In this document: in pieces, positions 2,755 to 18,918 of the stretch | How positions within the stretch are numbered: position 1 is the first letter of the stretch | How the letters are laid out: each line of letters starts with the position of its first letter | Source: a virus | IMG/VR virus record: IMGVR_UViG_3300024429_000008 | Location: 1-53,958 of that record | Length of the DNA: 53,958 nucleotides | Reading direction: 5' to 3' (one strand) | The notes under the pieces: generated by a model | The model's input: only the letters and a program-made list of their open reading frames with translations | Database searches by the model: none | What the model was told of the DNA's origin: nothing | Made by a program: the position numbers and the translations under genes

Positions 2755-3060
2755 ATGTTACCCGAGTCGATCCAGATTGGAGCTCACGTCTATTCTTTGA
2801 CACTGGTAGGTCGAAAGAAGTTACAGAAGAATCACACCGCCGAGGTTGATAACGAACAGAATCAAATCCGCATTTATCAGAAGTGCACCGCTTCCCGTCG
2901 GATCGAAGTACTATTTCACGAGGTCATCCATGCCATATTGGCTGGGACGCAATTCCCCATGGAAGAAGTGACTTGTACCATCCTGGGGGAAGGTTTGACC
3001 CAGCTCATCCGAGATAATCCTGAACTAATCAAACATGTACAAGATACCCTAGCCGAATAG
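2755..3060 (+). CDS. HExxH zinc metalloprotease-like protein
   Basis: The product is 101 residues. Residues around 66-70 read HEVIH inside a helix (VLFHEVIHAIL), the zinc-binding HExxH signature seen in small ImmA/IrrE-like and related phage metallopeptidase-fold proteins. A later Glu in the helix after the signature (EVTCTILGEGL) could be the third ligand. ATG at 2755 follows GGGGGAG. The substrate is unknown. It sits between the fibre block and the accessory operon. Confidence 0.7.
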   Translation: MLPESIQIGAHVYSLTLVGRKKLQKNHTAEVDNEQNQIRIYQKCTASRRIEVLFHEVIHAILAGTQFPMEEVTCTILGEGLTQLIRDNPELIKHVQDTLAE

Positions 3061-3078
3061 GCAAGCCCAATTTACGGT
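3057..3078 (+). repeat. 22-bp direct repeat, copy 1
   Basis: An exact 22-base direct repeat of 8564-8585. It begins at the stop codon of the upstream gene and lies about 60-90 bases upstream of a sigma70-like promoter in both cases. The core is GCAAGCCCAATTTACGG. It could be an operator or activator site that co-regulates the two promoters. Confidence 0.85.
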
Positions 3079-3133: not shown

Positions 3134-3162
3134 TTGCCTTCGGTTGACCGGCGGCATAGAAT
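3134..3162 (+). promoter_or_regulatory. Sigma70-like promoter of the ubiquitin-like operon
   Basis: TTGCCT (3134-3139), a 17-base spacer, then TAGAAT (3157-3162). Long A-tracts just upstream (3112-3132) resemble an UP element. It is placed ahead of the 3242-8536 operon. The predicted start is near 3169, inside the hairpin that follows. Confidence 0.6.
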
Positions 3163-3241: not shown

Positions 3242-3511
3242 ATGCAGAGACAAAGAGTGAAGGGTAGTAAGTGGATTTACTCAATGATCGTAGAGCATTT
3301 TCTCACCAAAGACATAGGGGTGTCACCCGATGGACTCGTACACTCCGATGGAAACGCCTTGTATTGTTGGGGAGTGAGCATAGCACGATGGCTAGACGGG
3401 ATACTACACGTGCGATCCCTAGAGGAATGTACCAAGAATAACGCAGTTCGGGAGGTCCGGGCTGGACTATTGGCAAGCTGCCAGGACAAGGCAGCCAACA
3501 GAAGGAGCTAG
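3242..3511 (+). CDS. Small protein leading the ubiquitin-like operon
   Basis: The product is 89 residues. ATG at 3242 is chosen for the GGAGG 6 bases upstream; frames further upstream run through the promoter. The N-terminus is basic and aromatic (MQRQRVKGSKWIYSMI), followed by a compact mixed region with two Cys (YCWG; EECTK). No family recognised. First gene of the operon, 4 bases before the beta-grasp gene, so it may be an accessory or target protein. Its start overlaps a degenerate copy of the repeat (GCAGAGACAAA). Confidence 0.7.
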   Translation: MQRQRVKGSKWIYSMIVEHFLTKDIGVSPDGLVHSDGNALYCWGVSIARWLDGILHVRSLEECTKNNAVREVRAGLLASCQDKAANRRS

Positions 3512-3515
3512 CAGT

Positions 3516-3749
3516 ATGAGCGAGGGCAACGCAATCAACATCACCATTAGGATGGGTGGGGATAGCCTGAATTTCACTTTCCCTAGAGGGACTACAATCG
3601 GGGTCCTGACGGAGGATGGGAGACTACGCGGGTCTGAAGATGCTACTGTACAAGTCAATGGGGTGCAAGCGGATGAGGACACGGTCCTCGAAGACGGGGA
3701 CTGTGTCTCGCAGACGAAAGTGCACGGCCAGCAGGGATCGGACAACTAG
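3516..3749 (+). CDS. Ubiquitin-like beta-grasp protein
   Basis: The product is 77 residues; ATG at 3516 follows AAGGAGCTAGCAGT. The pattern is that of a beta-grasp fold of the ThiS/MoaD/PRTRC-C type: an opening strand ITIRMGGDSLNFTF, a Pro-Arg-Gly-Thr-Thr turn into the helix, then VQVNGVQADEDTVLEDGDCV, the classic V-x-V-N-G … D-T-x-L-x-D-G-D-x-V motif. Downstream genes are E1-like and JAB-like, which fits a ubiquitin-like modifier. The C-terminus ends HGQQGSDN, not GG, so either the JAB protease exposes the single Gly or conjugation is atypical. A sulphur-carrier role is the alternative. Confidence 0.7.
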   Translation: MSEGNAINITIRMGGDSLNFTFPRGTTIGVLTEDGRLRGSEDATVQVNGVQADEDTVLEDGDCVSQTKVHGQQGSDN

Positions 3750-3763
3750 GTATGTTATTCGTG

Positions 3764-3819
3764 GGCAGAGACAGGGGGACCCCAGGGGATATTATGGTCC
3801 CCACCCCCCTGTCTCTGCC
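3764..3819 (+). repeat. Perfect 15-bp inverted repeat built on the 11-base word
   Basis: GGCAGAGACAGGGGG (3764-3778) and its exact complement (3805-3819) flank a 26-base loop. Both arms contain the dispersed 11-mer. It lies between the beta-grasp gene and the candidate E2 gene. No U-tract follows, so it is not a typical intrinsic terminator. It could cap or process the mRNA and so set different levels for the modifier and the enzymes. Confidence 0.85.
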
Positions 3820-3849
3820 ATTCTTGATGGGCTAGCTGGAGCAACTACC

Positions 3850-4212
3850 GTGGCAAAGTTTAAGGTTTGGCACCCGGATGGCGAAAGCCACGAGATTATG
3901 GGTGAACTCCGGATACTGACCAGTCAATGTGGACTCCACACTATATTGGCCATCCAGATGGTCCACCCAGTTACGAGTAGCGTGCCAGGTTACCAAGGGG
4001 ATCGGTGGGTCCCAGGAGTACTGTGTCCTATCAATCCTCTTTGTGTTATTGTAGACATGAAGTCAGACAAGATCTGCCACCATCCCCGCCGCCCGCTCAA
4101 CGAACAGCTTATGTCGGACCCGGCTTGGGAGTGGCTGAGGGATAATCCCACTTGGCCAAATGTGCTAGAGTTGGATTGGGAGAAAATGTGGCGTAAGGAG
4201 GATTGGGAATGA
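3850..4212 (+). CDS. Candidate E2-like conjugation protein (tentative)
   Basis: The product is 120 residues. GTG at 3850 is chosen because GGAG lies 8 bases upstream; the frame is open further upstream, but only through the inverted repeat. Features reminiscent of E2/UBC folds are a strand-rich start (FKVWHPDGESHEIMGELRIL), an HP dipeptide at residues 39-40, W53-x-P55, a Cys at 59 (GVLC), and a late R-P-L-N-x-x-L…WLRDNPTW segment like the E2 C-terminal helices. The HP-to-Cys spacing is longer than in typical E2s, so this is only a suggestion. Its position between modifier and E1 supports it. Confidence 0.4.
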   Translation: MAKFKVWHPDGESHEIMGELRILTSQCGLHTILAIQMVHPVTSSVPGYQGDRWVPGVLCPINPLCVIVDMKSDKICHHPRRPLNEQLMSDPAWEWLRDNPTWPNVLELDWEKMWRKEDWE

Positions 4213-4481
4213 GCTGTGATTGTATAAAACGTATTACCTTGCTGGTTGATCGACTCATCGAGTTGGAGGGCCGCGTAGGTATGATAGAGGCCAACTTGCG
4301 AGTAGCGGCGGAGGCTCTAGGCTTCCCGCCTTGGGATGAGGAAGTACATGGGGGAGGCTTTCCAGCGGAGGAGGATGAGGACCTTCCAGAGATAATCGGG
4401 GAAATTGGAGAGGAGTTTCCCTTTCCAGAGCTGGATGAGAATTTCCCTCCGGTGGAGGCAGAACTCGATGAAGAAAACTGA
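4209..4481 (+). CDS. Acidic coiled-coil protein in the ubiquitin-like operon
   Basis: The product is 90 residues. ATG at 4209 overlaps the upstream stop (ATGA) and follows AAGGAGG. Residues 1-35 form a Leu/Ile-rich helix with a C-x-C pair near the start (MSCDCIKRITLL). The remainder is very acidic, with repeated E/D-x-F-P motifs (EFPFPELDENFPPVE). No family recognised. Translational coupling suggests it works with the E1 and E2-like proteins, perhaps as an adaptor. Confidence 0.65.
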   Translation: MSCDCIKRITLLVDRLIELEGRVGMIEANLRVAAEALGFPPWDEEVHGGGFPAEEDEDLPEIIGEIGEEFPFPELDENFPPVEAELDEEN

Positions 4482-5190
4482 ACTGTTTGGACCAGGTTGT
4501 GAGTGGGTATTTGTGGGGTGCGGGGGGACTTTCTTTATGGCAATCCCTATATACTCCGTTTTGCTCCATAAGTACAGGCCCGGTAGCATTACGGTCATAG
4601 ACCCAGACCGTACAGAGCTGAAGAACTATGATCGACAATGGCCAGGGCGTGCCCCTGGACAGGAGAAGGCTCATCATGGCCGCGTCGCACTCGGTTGTCC
4701 AGGGGTCTCCATCGCGGAGCGATTCAATCCGAGTGATGAAGTTCTAATCGAGAGGACGGAGGGGAGACCAGTCGTAGCCATTGTGAATGTAGACAATGAC
4801 CAAGCCAGGCTAGACGTACACAGTTGGTTGGCGAGCCGGGTCAGCGATGGAGTTATGATAGATTCCGGTTGTGAAGCTGAGTACGGCCAATCTTGGGCCG
4901 GTATCTGGTTGGGTAGCAAGTGTATACACGATTGGTCGATTACTCACCCGAGTGTTGGGACGGTGGCCCCCGCAGCGGGGGGTGGATGTAGTCCACAGAC
5001 TGCTATGTCAAATCTTATGACAGCAACGTGCTCTGCCCTGATGATCGAAGAAGTAGTAAGATGGTTGCAAGCATTAGATGTAGGGATTCCACTGAGCATA
5101 CAGGAGTATGAATGGCAGATTTGGTCATCCAAGGGGGAAATTAGACTCTGGAATACTAAGATTCCTATACAGGTGGAAGGAAGTACTTGA
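4468..5190 (+). CDS. ThiF/E1-like adenylating enzyme
   Basis: The product is 240 residues from ATG 4468 (GGAGG 9 bases upstream; overlaps the previous gene). The Rossmann-type nucleotide loop VGCGGT is at residues 16-21. The strand-end acidic signature IDPD (44-47), followed by N53 and R-Q 56-57, matches the E1/ThiF/MoeB D-x-D…N…RQ motif. VDNDQAR (108-114) matches the ThiF D-N-x-x-x-R motif. A Cys at 174 in GGGCSPQ is a candidate thioester Cys, as in PRTRC-type ThiF proteins. Known family activity: ATP-dependent adenylation of a ubiquitin-like C-terminus. The partner is inferred to be the 3516 protein. Confidence 0.8.
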   Translation: MKKTELFGPGCEWVFVGCGGTFFMAIPIYSVLLHKYRPGSITVIDPDRTELKNYDRQWPGRAPGQEKAHHGRVALGCPGVSIAERFNPSDEVLIERTEGRPVVAIVNVDNDQARLDVHSWLASRVSDGVMIDSGCEAEYGQSWAGIWLGSKCIHDWSITHPSVGTVAPAAGGGCSPQTAMSNLMTATCSALMIEEVVRWLQALDVGIPLSIQEYEWQIWSSKGEIRLWNTKIPIQVEGST

Positions 5191-6215
5191 TGTTACATAC
5201 GTTAGAAGATATTTGGGAAGACCTTGAGGAGCAGCAATCCAAGCCTAGGGTAACGATGGGTTCTCCTCTCGGCGAGGAGCAACCACTCCTTGAATGGAAG
5301 GATTTAGAGAAGTACACCACGGATGAGAAAACCGACCTGACCATAGGCAGGGACAATCGAGTGTACGGAATACGGGGGGATGTTGTACAGTGTTGGGCTC
5401 CATTAGCACCTACGGGACCAGAGCAGGTATATCTGGATTGTGTCCGATGGGGGAATGCACCTCCCCTAGAACACCTGGCCCATCTGTTTGAACATTTCTT
5501 CCAGAAGTATGATCAAGAAGTGATTATGCTAGTCGGCCAGAAATTGAATGGATCAGAGTGGCTGTACTTTGTACCTCCCCAAGTGGGGACGGGGGGAGGG
5601 GTGAAGTGGGATATCCGGGGGGAGGCTGCAAAAGAATTCACTGGCTTGGCTGTATGGATAGGAACGATCCATAGCCACCCTGGAAATTGCACCAGCCCCA
5701 GTACAGTAGACGTTAGCGAGTGGGCTGATCCCTTATGCTCTGGTATCCACATGATACTAGGGAACGATGGGAGTTATACTTATCATGGAGCCATCGTCGG
5801 GAAAACATTCCCCCTGAAGAGCGGGACTCTAGAAGGGGTTATGCCAGCACCGGTATGGTGGCGACAAAGTGGTGGGCGTAGCTTGGGAGAGTTGCTGCGG
5901 ACTCCACCCCCACTACCGCCTCCAACGCCCACTGTTAAGACGGTGGATACGACCGCGAGGCCCTTTCCCCGACTCCTAAGAGACGAGATCCCTCACCAGA
6001 TTACTCAAGACGAACCCGGACTCCCACCCGACTCCTATTCGTCCCTCGCCTGCGACCGGGATGACCTGGATGATTTACGGATCGTGTTCTCCGGGAATGC
6101 GGTTTGGATTATGACCTCTCTGGAATGCAGCGTTTGGATGAGTGAAAATCCCAGCCTCAGCTCCGAGGTAGAGATTCGGACGCTGCGGATTCCCAACGGA
6201 GGAGAGCCATCGTGA
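5190..6215 (+). CDS. JAB/JAMM (MPN) metalloprotease, putative deconjugase
   Basis: The product is 341 residues from ATG 5190, overlapping the E1 stop and preceded by GGAAGG. The JAMM zinc motif is exact: H161-S-H163, seven residues, S171-T-V-D174 (H-x-H-x7-S-x-x-D), following a strand-helix stretch with a candidate catalytic Glu. Known family role: isopeptidase or processing protease acting on ubiquitin-like tails. The N-terminal ~100 residues and a Pro-rich C-terminal region (residues ~235-265) are extensions of unknown function. No NlpC/P60 domain is attached, unlike tail-assembly JAB proteins. Confidence 0.82.
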   Translation: MLHTLEDIWEDLEEQQSKPRVTMGSPLGEEQPLLEWKDLEKYTTDEKTDLTIGRDNRVYGIRGDVVQCWAPLAPTGPEQVYLDCVRWGNAPPLEHLAHLFEHFFQKYDQEVIMLVGQKLNGSEWLYFVPPQVGTGGGVKWDIRGEAAKEFTGLAVWIGTIHSHPGNCTSPSTVDVSEWADPLCSGIHMILGNDGSYTYHGAIVGKTFPLKSGTLEGVMPAPVWWRQSGGRSLGELLRTPPPLPPPTPTVKTVDTTARPFPRLLRDEIPHQITQDEPGLPPDSYSSLACDRDDLDDLRIVFSGNAVWIMTSLECSVWMSENPSLSSEVEIRTLRIPNGGEPS

Positions 6216-7966
6216 CCCTTAATGAGGTTGTACAACAAGCTATACGGGACCTAGGAACTGTTGACGGCCAGGCATCCGTGAGTGAATACACTAAGACATA
6301 CCCCTACATGGCTGTCCTAGAAACAGAGATGACATCCCGAGTATATCAGGTACTGGAGAGCGTCGTGGGAGGGTCCCCTGACTTCCCCTCACAACATGTC
6401 CACATGAGGCCGTTCCTACCAGATCGTCAGGATATTGATGGAATTTTGTGGGCTGGGGTACCCTCTCTCACCTGTTCAGGGGAATCTGAAGGAGGAGCTC
6501 TAATATTCCACCAGTTCTATGAGGGGCCACCCGAATCCCCCATCGGACCCGTAGCGTTGAGGATTATGCCTGGTCTCCAAGAGACTGACCTAGCTTTCGT
6601 CCCTATGCGATGTAATCGCCTTCGAGAAGTAATGCAAATTAGGGGAGGCCACCAACTTGATGATCCTCCAGAGCAATTCCCAATCGGCTATAATCGGGCC
6701 TGTCAGCCACGGGTGGATCATATAGCCGCCGCGATTATGGCCCTGGGAACGCATCCCGGGACACCTGGAATAGCCTTCCGAGGGTTGCTAGGGGATACCC
6801 CCATCGCAGTTTTTGCCCGGAGTTTGTGGGAGAACCTGTATCGAGATAAGGGTCCACTCTCCCTACAGACAGTAGGCTCACGCTTCGCCCATGCAGCAAA
6901 AATGGTCTTGGCTTATGCTTACCCGACGATGATGAGCCACCCCACATTGGAGGACTTGAAGTGTATTAGGCAGACTCTCAGGCATCCCCTTTGGAGCCTA
7001 GAGGAGGCGTGGCCAACCTATTACAACCTTGTAGTACCCCCTTCTCTCTTTCAGGCCGCTAGAGAATGCATGACTCAAGGACATACCCCTATCATACCCC
7101 AATACATAACATCTACCGTATGGTTATTCAACGGTGGTAGAGATAATTACTGTTTAGGGACTGATCCCAATCCGGGGAATTCTTGGTGGGCCAAGAAGGT
7201 TTGGGCCGGGATGCACTCCGGATTCAATCTCGACATATCGGGTGAATTCTCTAAGTGGCCGGGGCCAATCCCAGCGGAGTGGGCAACTCTGTTAGTACAG
7301 GCCATGCAGGATCAACAGGAAGAAACCCCACACCTGCGAGCTAGCCAGCAGACTGATGCAGGACTAGAGAAGGCCCGGAACGTACCCTGCATGTTCCGGT
7401 GTGTAGACTCAAGCTATGTAACTTCCTTGATCTACAATTTAGTCGATGCCTCGGGTGAGGTGCAATGCTGTGATGGTAACGGGGTTCCCCAAGAGGTCCC
7501 GCCATGCTCGGACCCCCCCTCCAACCCTTTTGAGAGAGAAGATGATGAAGAAAACGAAGATGACGTGTGTGCAGAGTGTAGAGGATCCTTCGATGACTAC
7601 ACAGTCTGCGGGAATTGCCACGAAATCATTTGTTCGGACTGTCACAGTCGCCCTGAAGGGCATGGGGAGTGTAGGTTCTGCCCATGTTGTCGCGACGATA
7701 CAGACCCCCACTATCGGGTTGATATGGCCCCTTGTCACCTTTGTGGCCGCCTCATTTGTAGTGACCACTATGACCATTGCGAGAGCTGCCTGCACTATAT
7801 CTGCTCTGCCTGTGAGTCTGCAGGAGATCACGCCTGTTCCCCCTGCGAAAGGTGCGGTGGACTATCCGACACCCTAGGTACATGCGAACGCTGTGGGACA
7901 GAAGGTCTATGTGCAACCTGCCGCGAGGGTTGCTGCCTCCTCACACAAGCTGACACGGAAGGATAA
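6212..7966 (+). CDS. Large protein with RING-like Cys-rich C-terminus, candidate E3
   Basis: The product is 584 residues from a GTG overlapping the JAB stop, after GGAGGAG. Residues 1-430 match no family I recognise. From about residue 450 a dense zinc-binding region begins: C-x2-C-x9-C-x2-C-x4-C-x2-C-x9-C-x2-C-x-C-C, then a second array (CHLCG, CSDH, CESC, CSAC, CERCG, CERCG, CATC). The first set has RING/treble-clef-like spacing. In a ubiquitin-like operon this points to an E3-like or substrate-recruiting role, but other zinc-ribbon functions are possible. An acidic linker (EREDDEENEDD) separates the halves. Confidence 0.65.
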   Translation: MTLNEVVQQAIRDLGTVDGQASVSEYTKTYPYMAVLETEMTSRVYQVLESVVGGSPDFPSQHVHMRPFLPDRQDIDGILWAGVPSLTCSGESEGGALIFHQFYEGPPESPIGPVALRIMPGLQETDLAFVPMRCNRLREVMQIRGGHQLDDPPEQFPIGYNRACQPRVDHIAAAIMALGTHPGTPGIAFRGLLGDTPIAVFARSLWENLYRDKGPLSLQTVGSRFAHAAKMVLAYAYPTMMSHPTLEDLKCIRQTLRHPLWSLEEAWPTYYNLVVPPSLFQAARECMTQGHTPIIPQYITSTVWLFNGGRDNYCLGTDPNPGNSWWAKKVWAGMHSGFNLDISGEFSKWPGPIPAEWATLLVQAMQDQQEETPHLRASQQTDAGLEKARNVPCMFRCVDSSYVTSLIYNLVDASGEVQCCDGNGVPQEVPPCSDPPSNPFEREDDEENEDDVCAECRGSFDDYTVCGNCHEIICSDCHSRPEGHGECRFCPCCRDDTDPHYRVDMAPCHLCGRLICSDHYDHCESCLHYICSACESAGDHACSPCERCGGLSDTLGTCERCGTEGLCATCREGCCLLTQADTEG

Positions 7967-7993
7967 AAATGGCAAAGACAGGAGATGTGGATC

Positions 7994-8536
7994 ATGCAGC
8001 TCCAGTATAATCGGTGTCCTAACGATCCCAACTTGCCAGTAGTCTCCCATGTAGGAATGACCGGTGATGGCAAGGTTGTTGAGGTAGGGCTCGCTGAGAT
8101 AACTAGTGCCCTGTCTCTGTACAGTGCTGCGTGTGTGGTAACTCTGGCAGCAAGGAATGGTATAGTTCCAGATTTCGTTACCCGCGTTGCGATGGCACTA
8201 ACACTTCCAATGAAGGAGGACCCCCATGGATTGTGTCTCCCCACGAAAATACTCATGGAGGCGAGCCTGATCCTGCAAGGACAGAAAATCCTGATGGATG
8301 AAAGGGGTCTCTTGCATACTGATATGGGGAGGCAGGACGGAATAGACCTTTTGAAAGGGTGCTCTCCCCATGTAGAACAGCCACCGTGTTGCAGAGACAG
8401 GCAAAAGATGCTGGAGGCTCTGGAGGATTTGACTAACCAAATGGGGCCTACCTTCGAAGTCGTGGAAGCACATTGTGGTCTAATCGTAGCTGGTTGTTGG
8501 AAGACTGCCCGAACGATTGTCGAATCGGCGGAGTGA
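7994..8536 (+). CDS. Hypothetical protein, last gene of the ubiquitin-like operon
   Basis: The product is 180 residues. ATG 7994 is chosen with GGAG 9 bases upstream; ATG 7985 would sit directly against the site. A 13-codon frame starting at 7969 could be a leader. Contains a hydrophobic helical segment (LYSAACVVTLAA) and several Cys (GCSPHVEQPPCC). No family recognised. Two repeat copies lie inside: exact at 8391-8401, one mismatch at 8110-8120. Followed by the 22-bp repeat at 8564. Confidence 0.65.
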   Translation: MQLQYNRCPNDPNLPVVSHVGMTGDGKVVEVGLAEITSALSLYSAACVVTLAARNGIVPDFVTRVAMALTLPMKEDPHGLCLPTKILMEASLILQGQKILMDERGLLHTDMGRQDGIDLLKGCSPHVEQPPCCRDRQKMLEALEDLTNQMGPTFEVVEAHCGLIVAGCWKTARTIVESAE

Positions 8537-8563: not shown

Positions 8564-8585
8564 ATAGGCAAGCCCAATTTACGGT
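8564..8585 (+). repeat. 22-bp direct repeat, copy 2
   Basis: An exact match to 3057-3078. It lies 65 bases upstream of the 8650 promoter, in the same order as copy 1 (repeat, A-tract, promoter, hairpin, gene). Confidence 0.85.
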
Positions 8586-8649: not shown

Positions 8650-8678
8650 TTGACAATCCGGCGGCCGGAGGGTATGCT
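8650..8678 (+). promoter_or_regulatory. Strong sigma70-like promoter
   Basis: TTGACA (8650-8655), a 17-base spacer, TATGCT (8673-8678). An A9-type tract at about 8631-8639 precedes it. The predicted start is near 8685, at the base of a hairpin, GTCGGC (8684-8689) with GCCGAC (8701-8706). It drives the small-protein cluster starting at 8763. Confidence 0.75.
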
Positions 8679-17055: not shown

Positions 17056-18918
17056 ATGGCGGTCGTATTTTCCAAGAAAGGGAATGAATTCTTTCCTTTA
17101 CCCTCTGATTATCCAGAATTAGTGTCGGAGGGACAGCGGCTGGCTCGGGTGAACGCTGTGCAGATTCGGGGAACTCCCGAATTGGAGGTGGCATCTTGGT
17201 TCTTTTTCAAGACCTATTATCTCCTCCCTACCTTACCTGGGGAATTTTTCAAACACGGAACCGTAAAATCGCCCGATATGCACTTTAAGTGGATTTATTT
17301 TTGGGAAGCCAATCAGCTTTCGGTCACAGCTGCACCGAGGTCGGCAGCTAAGTCAACCCTCATTAAGGAAAATATCCTTCGCAAAGTAGTATCCCGGCCC
17401 TACTGGGAGTCGGTTCTGTTCCTAGCCAAACAGGATTTTCTCACGACGACGTTCGATGATTTTATGGTCCAGATCGAAAGGAATGAGCGGATCCTTGAGG
17501 ACTTTGGGGTTCTCAAGCCCAGCCGGAATGAGGGGATCTGGAACCACAGTCAGCTCAAACTTAAAAACGGAGCGATGATTACCGGGATGCCCATCTCGGG
17601 AGCGTCTCTCGGCAAGCGTCCCCATGAGATCTACTTCGATGATGTCGAACGGGATGACAGCCTCATCCTATCTCCCTCCGAAAACATCCAGGGATTCAAA
17701 ACCTTCTTCTTCAATACAGTGTACCCCATGGCTGACTCCCTAGATGTCCGCATCCGCGTAGTAGGGACACTCTTATCCAGGCGGACATTCATTTACTGGT
17801 TGCACAGTACATCAGATCCTCGGATTGATGACTGGAAGAGGTTGTTTCACGCCGTCACATTCGTAAATGAAGAGGGAGGTGCCGAGGATGAGTGGCCAGA
17901 GAAGATGGGCCGGGAGTGGCAAACAGTGCAGCGGCGTCGTATGGGGCCCTCGGCCTACGCTGCTCAGTACGAGAACAATCCTGTCACTGAGGCAGAACGC
18001 ATCCTCCGCCTTCACCCTGAGCTTAACACCTACTGGTTGGAGAACACTTGTGCAGCGACTTACTTGGATCCCCTCAACTCCAGTGCTGTTATGGTCTCCC
18101 ATCAACTCTCCGGATGGGACAAGTCGTTTGAGGACCCTATGCCCCTACCCAGTAAGCTCACAAGGAACTTTGGGGAAGTGGTCAGTAAGATGCGGCGGTT
18201 CATCACTATCGACTCGGCCCCGACAGTTTCGGAGAGTTCGGATTTCTCCTGTATCCACGTGATGGGGATAGAGAACTCCCCCGATTATCGGGACACGCTG
18301 TGGTCCCTAGACATCTGGCTGGGAAAGAAATCCTCTGAAGAGATCGTCCGGAGGACTTATGCCATGGCCATGAAGTGGCAAGTCCCTCTGATAGCAGTAG
18401 AGGCATACCCTGTGCAGATGGAATTCGCCGAGCGACTCAAGCATGATCTCCCCTCCATGTACGGCCAGGGTCAGGTTCCCTGCCGGATACTGGCAGTGAA
18501 GTTCCCCACTCACTACAAGAAACCTGACAAGATCGCTGGGCTACATTGGCGGTTCAAACAGTTCCGGTTGAAGCTGCCACTGGACCGACGAGACGAGGAA
18601 GGCTACAAGGCCCTATTCTACCAAGTAGAGAACTTCACGGAGGACCTCGCCCTATTGCAGCACGATGATGCCATAGACACACTAGCAATGCACTTGGCCA
18701 TCGGCAAATCCGTGGCCCCTGTTGGGCCTGATGAGCATCAATTCAAGACCCCAGTGGATATGCTCCGGGACGGAGAATATCACTACGAGTCCGGGATCAG
18801 TGTGATGTCGGGCATGAACGCGAGCGAGATACCGGACGACGTTCTAGATACGATGTTGGGTCGGCAACGGGATGATCTCGAAGAAGAACCGAACCTCGAC
18901 TGGGTAAACTATGCGTAA
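17056..18918 (+). CDS. terL: Terminase large subunit
   Basis: The product is 620 residues. An ATPase half with a Walker A-like APRSAAKST (about residues 93-101) and Walker B-like EIYFDDVERDD (about 191-200). A nuclease half with acidic strands ITIDSAPTVSESSDFS (about 383-398) and a late HDDAIDTLAMH Asp pair. Order and size match phage DNA-packaging motors. It pumps DNA into the prohead through the portal encoded next but one. The ATG overlaps nothing; GGAGG is in the end of the upstream gene. Confidence 0.85.
   Translation: MAVVFSKKGNEFFPLPSDYPELVSEGQRLARVNAVQIRGTPELEVASWFFFKTYYLLPTLPGEFFKHGTVKSPDMHFKWIYFWEANQLSVTAAPRSAAKSTLIKENILRKVVSRPYWESVLFLAKQDFLTTTFDDFMVQIERNERILEDFGVLKPSRNEGIWNHSQLKLKNGAMITGMPISGASLGKRPHEIYFDDVERDDSLILSPSENIQGFKTFFFNTVYPMADSLDVRIRVVGTLLSRRTFIYWLHSTSDPRIDDWKRLFHAVTFVNEEGGAEDEWPEKMGREWQTVQRRRMGPSAYAAQYENNPVTEAERILRLHPELNTYWLENTCAATYLDPLNSSAVMVSHQLSGWDKSFEDPMPLPSKLTRNFGEVVSKMRRFITIDSAPTVSESSDFSCIHVMGIENSPDYRDTLWSLDIWLGKKSSEEIVRRTYAMAMKWQVPLIAVEAYPVQMEFAERLKHDLPSMYGQGQVPCRILAVKFPTHYKKPDKIAGLHWRFKQFRLKLPLDRRDEEGYKALFYQVENFTEDLALLQHDDAIDTLAMHLAIGKSVAPVGPDEHQFKTPVDMLRDGEYHYESGISVMSGMNASEIPDDVLDTMLGRQRDDLEEEPNLDWVNYA

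Follow-up and report, generated by a model that had tools for sequence, protein, structure and literature searches.

A predicted ubiquitin-like tagging module in a tailed-phage lineage, probably related to the PRTRC system of plasmids

A row of eight genes at positions 3242–8536 of the IMG/VR virus record IMGVR_UViG_3300024429_000008 probably forms a phage-borne module for tagging proteins with a ubiquitin-like protein (Ubl), which we consider a divergent cousin of the PRTRC system of plasmids (operon type 6d of Iyer et al., 2006). The whole stretch of DNA that was analyzed, hereafter the window, has a length of 53,958 bases and encodes a terminase large subunit (17056–18918) and a DNA polymerase (48370–51090), so that it can be assigned to a tailed phage. 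The operon was revealed in six contigs, the window and five further IMG/VR tailed-phage contigs, G001 (L001), G002 (L003), G003 (L004), G004 (L007) and G010 (L064), and the gene order Ubl–E1–JAB–large protein–last protein is common to all of them. Within this lineage we observed recognizable Ubl, E1 and JAB families with complete active-site residues, the same gene order and a conserved promoter. The genes of the window are as follows.

3242–3511, plus strand: p1, the first gene, encoding a protein of 89 amino acids (aa) with a homologue in L001 (E 2.4e-4).
3516–3749, plus strand: Ubl, a 77-aa predicted beta-grasp protein with an invariant Gly71 followed by the short tail QQGSDN.
3850–4212, plus strand: x3, about 120 aa, with an inferred GTG start and homologues in L003 and G010 only.
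4209–4481, plus strand: cc, a 90-aa acidic protein; similarly placed open reading frames (ORFs) occur in L001, L004 and L007 (position only, no homology claimed).
4468–5190, plus strand: E1-like adenylating enzyme with a single adenylation domain and a candidate thioester cysteine, Cys174.
5190–6215, plus strand: JAB/JAMM isopeptidase whose N-terminal domain is of the type found in PRTRC A (JAB-N).
6212–7966, plus strand: large protein of 584 aa with one invariant cysteine (C314) and a Cys-rich tail of zinc-binding type.
7985–8536, plus strand: last gene, encoding a 183-aa protein with the motif RC...DxHxLC, conserved in 6/6 contigs.

These gene calls agree with the limits given in an earlier note, which had been made from the letters of the window and had described consecutive, overlapping genes. 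Overlaps of 4, 14, 1 and 4 bases were measured at x3/cc, cc/E1, E1/JAB and JAB/large protein, respectively; the rest of the spacing consists of two small gaps and one 100-base gap with a hairpin. As judged by eye, L004 and L007 have ORFs resembling p1 at the corresponding position.

The E1-like enzyme of the window, when searched alone, matched ThiF/PRTRC_ThiF weakly (E 2.3e-4). PRTRC_ThiF was the top NCBIfam match for four of five members of the family (best 2.3e-4), and with model TIGR03736 the window protein scored 20.5 bits at a curated cut-off of 144.75, which none of the five contigs exceeded. Profile–profile comparison with PRTRC ThiF proteins gave E-values of 1.8e-9 (5 vs 7 sequences), 2.4e-12 (6 vs 9) and 6e-15 (6 vs 13). 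It should be mentioned that all profile–profile E-values reported here are single-comparison values, obtained among 48, 36 and 36 pairs in three rounds, and that the PRTRC sequences were picked by hand from 40 of 360 plasmid records, so that the alignments represent a small sample. Residues G17, G19, G20, D45, N53, R56, Q57, K67, D109, R114, G134, G140, Q141 and C174 were identical in all 19 phage and PRTRC E1 sequences, and G145 in 18 of them. C174 lies at what we take to be the position of the MoeB/Uba4 thioester cysteine. By profile, the gene at 4468 thus belongs to the E1 family, as had been predicted from its motifs.

The JAB protein carries the exact H-S-H-x7-S-x2-D site noticed earlier, together with an upstream E110, and all of these residues are invariant in the six phage sequences. 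The JAMM residues E110, H161, H163, S171 and D174 are also identical in 9/9 PRTRC A proteins (15/15 in total). The best single-sequence matches were to Prok-JAB (4e-5) and to CBASS Cap3, the latter in 5/5 members (best 8.6e-5); JAB models of PADLOC matched at 2.3e-5, and a weak match to a PHROG tail protein was found (E 0.0029). In profile–profile comparison with PRTRC A the E-value changed from 0.037 to 4.7e-4 and then to 3.5e-7 as sequences were added, the last alignment being collinear over 157 columns that comprise the N-terminal domain and the JAMM core. The other profile pairs gave values of about 0.03 or worse, except for the E1 pair and for JAB compared with four phage-borne A proteins alone (2.4e-4).

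For the window Ubl alone, a profile search revealed only a weak TGS match, and four of five members of its family matched Pfam ThiS (best 5e-6). AlphaFold2, run on a five-sequence alignment, produced five models with mean confidence (pLDDT) of 78.8, 78.4, 73.8, 53.4 and 50.4; the first has the element order beta-beta-alpha-beta-beta-beta. In a Foldseek search with this model SUMO chains ranked first (E 7e-5), and a second structural aligner found Mth1743 (Z 10.1), MoaD (Z 8.7) and SAMP1 (Z 8.0). The model and the ThiS matches are consistent with the beta-grasp fold that had been suggested for the gene at 3516. Gly71 is invariant in 6/6 sequences and is followed by variable tails of 3–6 residues (QQGSDN, KQGN, KQG, KQAA, KQGA and RLA), which might be removed by JAB.

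To obtain relatives that were not picked by the operon itself, we used a scan based on terminase alignment, which also yielded G010 as a new operon contig. In total, 13 contigs were found, and both E1 and JAB were detected in five of them, namely in all those with a length of 49 kb or more. The loci L005, L006, L008–L012, L017–L019, L044–L046 and L048 come from the same contigs as L001, L003, L004 and L007 and were left out of the counts. Identity of the terminase to that of the window was 69–71% in G001, G003 and G004 and 49% in G002. The corresponding values for E1 were 42–45% and 32%, and the large protein, where it was found in this comparison, was 26–28% identical; in a separate alignment of the large protein the values were 25–26% for three of four relatives and 17% for L003. 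Since the terminase is more alike across the contigs than E1 or the large protein, the operon seems to be a stable but fast-changing part of this lineage. A tblastn search of INPHARED with the window E1 and JAB, the L007 E1 and the L004 Ubl revealed no relative of E1 or JAB and only chance-level matches of Ubl (E 4–7), and a tblastn search of plasmids with the window E1 likewise gave only chance-level matches. Two pattern scans of cellular genome contigs found no confirmed relative; these scans needed short exact peptides and are therefore weak evidence of absence.

Operon type 6d was described as a set of a Ubl with a C-terminal Gly, a JAB protein with an N-terminal domain, an E1, an E2-like protein and an alpha-helical protein (Iyer et al., 2006; PMC1779556, in the excerpts used here). 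According to our own matching, this type is the system annotated as PRTRC (NCBIfam TIGR03734–TIGR03742). In the plasmid PRTRC loci that we fetched, ParB is followed by E-C-F-B-A-ThiF; in some loci individual genes are absent or lack an annotation. The phage operon resembles these loci in its E1 of the single-domain PRTRC_ThiF type, in the N-terminal domain of its JAB and in its location on a mobile element. Both sets also contain a small Ubl with a G-x-x-G/A-like end, at times with extra residues (e.g., L027, L067); the PRTRC C proteins mostly end in G-x-K-G/A, with extra residues in one case (C of L021 was taken from an inner start). In contrast, the gene order of the phage operon is different, its Ubl is ThiS-like and not alignable with PRTRC C, and it contains the large and last proteins instead. 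ParB and the E2-like protein B were each found in 0/5 contigs at E<=1 (for ParB, the contigs may be fragments), and PRTRC E and F had no match in the operon. Thus, the phage operon can be regarded as a relative of PRTRC and not a member of it, because E1 and JAB are shared but ParB, B and C are not. The statement of the earlier note that the gene content matches no known set is correct only in part, since E1 and JAB are of PRTRC type.

With PRTRC ThiF as the query, nine records were retrieved from INPHARED. Four of them were examined, Burkholderia phage BgVeeders33, Bacillus phage KLEB27-3, Salmonella phage Arash and one faecal phage contig, and all four contained PRTRC A-like and B-like genes near an E1-like gene; the B-like gene is weak in Arash (E 0.0013) and lies about 5 kb away in the faecal contig. 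BgVeeders33 contains E, C, B, A and ThiF and a weak F, and a PRTRC_A domain is already annotated in the record of KLEB27-3. These phages resemble the window in carrying JAB and E1 genes; they differ in the presence of a PRTRC B-type E2 gene, and homologues of the window Ubl, large and last proteins were not found in the fetched stretches. The PRTRC-type sets in other phages indicate that phage carriage is wider than the window lineage and not unique to it. Two further features of these phages were recorded. The PRTRC C protein of BgVeeders33 (L067, 4833–5222), within the E-C-F-B-A-ThiF set of an isolated phage, has about 60 residues beyond GTKG. In Arash (L069, 1519–4539) the PRTRC B-like, A-like and E1-like genes lie in a row, and the E1 and B genes carry the record label 'structural protein' (a label only).

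None of the operon proteins matched an E2 model (Pfam, NCBIfam and family searches), so that the candidate E2 proposed earlier lacks support. Neither the large nor the last protein matched an enzyme family in Pfam or NCBIfam. The large protein is present in 6/6 contigs (584 aa in the window, 403–502 aa in the others), and its sole invariant cysteine is C314, located within the motif [FWY]N-x6-C. Through this residue the large protein is the best, unproven, candidate for an E2/E3-type enzyme, as judged from sequence. Its Cys-rich tail (about residues 453–578), described in the earlier note as RING-like, occurs in the window, L001 and L004 and is absent from L003, L007 and G010; no RING model matched it, the best hit being IBR with E 0.09 in one of five members. 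A RING E3 reading of the large protein was rejected since the tail is conserved in only three of six contigs.

A relation of the large protein to PRTRC B is a lead only. C314 was aligned with the PRTRC B cysteine in the first alignment and again with six phage and nine PRTRC sequences (E 0.25), but this register was lost once phage-borne B proteins had been added (full length E 0.63; core alone E 0.35, over a short stretch); the comparison was never significant (E 0.25–0.63). The x3 protein was also considered and rejected as E2. It is present in only three of six contigs, the window included, and is not an E2 candidate because the window/L003 pair has no invariant cysteine. Of the full conjugation set proposed for this phage in the earlier note, the conserved Ubl, E1 and JAB are borne out; no E2 or RING E3 can be assigned, and x3 is missing in three of six contigs.

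The following course of tagging can be hypothesized. JAB would first cut back the Ubl, removing its last few residues at the invariant Gly71 or directly behind it. The E1, presumably acting as a simple ThiF/MoeB-like dimer, would adenylate the Ubl C-terminus and then form a thioester on Cys174. From there the Ubl would be handed on to some protein that is present in the course of infection, probably via the large partner and its only invariant cysteine, C314, and JAB could take it off again. As the target we tentatively favour a host protein, because sets of this kind are carried by both plasmids and phages and because the operon genes differ more between phages than the terminase does.

Several observations weigh against a tagging module of PRTRC kinship. 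No E2 or E3 can be assigned by sequence in the operon, and the AlphaFold2 model of the large protein is unusable (pLDDT 36.7). Only one of six Ubl sequences ends in Gly (the final residues being N, N, G, A, A and A), two of six have A at position 74, and profile–profile comparison of the Ubl with PRTRC C gave no alignment (E 0.46). Eight of the 13 terminase contigs lack a detected E1 or JAB, and all eight are of 40.4 kb or less. In G005, the longest of them, the expected place of the operon is not covered, because the contig reaches only about 1.2 kb upstream from the terminase gene; in G008 the 10 kb upstream of the terminase contain no homologue, and this stretch may be too short to reach the operon.

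Sets of Ubl, JAB and E1 are also known from sulfur-carrier pathways (Iyer et al., 2006; PMC1779556, in part), and we considered a pathway in which the Ubl C-terminus, freed by JAB and activated by E1, becomes a thiocarboxylate that gives sulfur to a metabolite or tRNA. The ThiS/MoaD type of the Ubl fits this explanation, as do the JAB, E1 and ThiS-like sets described in siderophore and other sulfur-linked clusters (excerpts of the same paper). It is weakened by the lack of rhodanese (PF00581) and PALP (PF00291) genes in 5/5 contigs, with controls detected in 13/14 and 14/14, respectively; the host could supply these functions. Sulfur-carrier and cofactor genes, which the earlier note had named as the mark of a biosynthetic cluster, thus form no evident sulfur-cofactor cluster in these contigs. 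Besides, the nearest relatives of E1 and JAB are the PRTRC proteins and not ThiF/MoeB, and no enzyme family was found for the large and last proteins. We therefore regard a sulfur carrier as unlikely.

Similarly improbable, in our estimate, is a role in the virion, in which the Ubl would be attached to a phage structural protein or help to assemble it. Virion-type genes precede the operon on the same strand, its JAB has the PHROG tail-protein match given above, and tail assembly in lambda-type phages involves a Ubl (I) together with a JAB protein (K) (Iyer et al., 2006; PMC1779556, in part). The window shares with them a ThiS-like phage Ubl and a JAB protein. However, the lambda-type clusters as described in the excerpts of that paper have no E1, and their JAB is fused to NlpC/P60, for which there was no match in the operon; moreover, the operon has its own promoter and is not part of a late tail block. 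We keep this role in consideration because of the 'structural protein' labels of the PRTRC-like E1 and B in Arash, which are record labels only. Among the papers listed in searches of the open-licence literature there was no report of a phage Ubl–E1–JAB operon beyond the Ubl–JAB tail genes of Iyer et al.

A counter-defence function, with JAB removing the tags of the host or with the Ubl and E1 competing against BilA/Cap2-type machinery, is suggested by the weak Cap3 and the PADLOC matches of JAB. It seems very unlikely, since the relation of the JAB profile to PRTRC A is significant and an antagonist would need no intact E1 and Ubl of its own. Among the defence systems themselves, Bil (BilABCD) also combines a Ubl, an E1 and a JAB protein; BilA consists of two Ubl domains, and BilD of two adenylation domains and a Cys domain (PMC11354881, in part), whereas the window Ubl (77 aa) and E1 (240 aa) have one domain each. 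Neither the CD-NTase nor the E1–E2 fusion (Cap2) of type II CBASS had a full-protein match among the eight operon proteins.

The tagging module related to PRTRC thus remains our preferred reading. A bolder version of it, which we put forward as rather doubtful, is a working phage Ubl cascade in which the large protein, with its C314 and variable zinc tail, would be an E2/E3-type enzyme not described before. Such a cascade would tag host or phage proteins during infection, be conserved in the lineage and represent a branch of a mobile-element Ubl family including PRTRC. What is known of Ubl systems in bacteria concerns mainly the defence of hosts against phages, besides plasmid cassettes that lack an explanation (PRTRC). 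The presence in a phage lineage of a complete-looking set for activation and deconjugation, with E1 and JAB ancestry shared with PRTRC, suggests that tagging is also a tool of mobile elements, besides being a weapon against them. The system is small and testable, and together with BgVeeders33, KLEB27-3 and Arash it opens the role of PRTRC modules to plaque assays.

The following elements other than genes were found in and around the operon.

3057–3078, plus strand: upstream copy of a 22-bp perfect direct repeat, before the operon and ahead of the A-tract promoter.
3134–3162, plus strand: operon promoter, A-tract and TTGCCT-17-TAGAAT, sigma-70-like, ahead of p1.
3765–3818, plus strand: inverted repeat GCAGAGACAGG...CCTGTCTCTGC in the gap that separates Ubl from x3, belonging to a set of repeats spread over the whole phage.
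8564–8585, plus strand: downstream copy of the 22-bp repeat, after the operon and ahead of the next A-tract promoter at 8650.

The dedicated promoter noticed earlier is unlikely to be a chance match because an equivalent element, TTG[AC]-18-TAGAAT behind an A-tract, was found at the equivalent place in all three relatives examined (L001, L004 and L007). The 22-bp repeats were considered as edges of a mobile cassette; this is not favoured, because the operon lacks flanking repeats of this kind in the four relatives checked and because a promoter follows closely after each copy.

An 11-base motif, CCTGTCTCTGC / GCAGAGACAGG, occurs in 36 exact copies (17 + 19) in the 54 kb of the window (e.g., at 3808, 13281, 16058, 18938, 22781 and 32025), compared with a mean of 0 in shuffled sequences. 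It was not found in the five stretches of relatives checked. Seven of the 17 plus-strand copies end 13–31 bases ahead of a start codon, and the motif may be a regulatory site or an RNA element of the window phage.

Directly 5' of the operon, at 2755–3060, a small HExxH protein (HEVIHAIL) is encoded, with homologues in 4/4 relatives compared and a similar ORF in G010. Just ahead of the operon, at 69–2088, there are three successive virion-protein-like proteins, mutually alike by eye, with homologues in three of four relatives.

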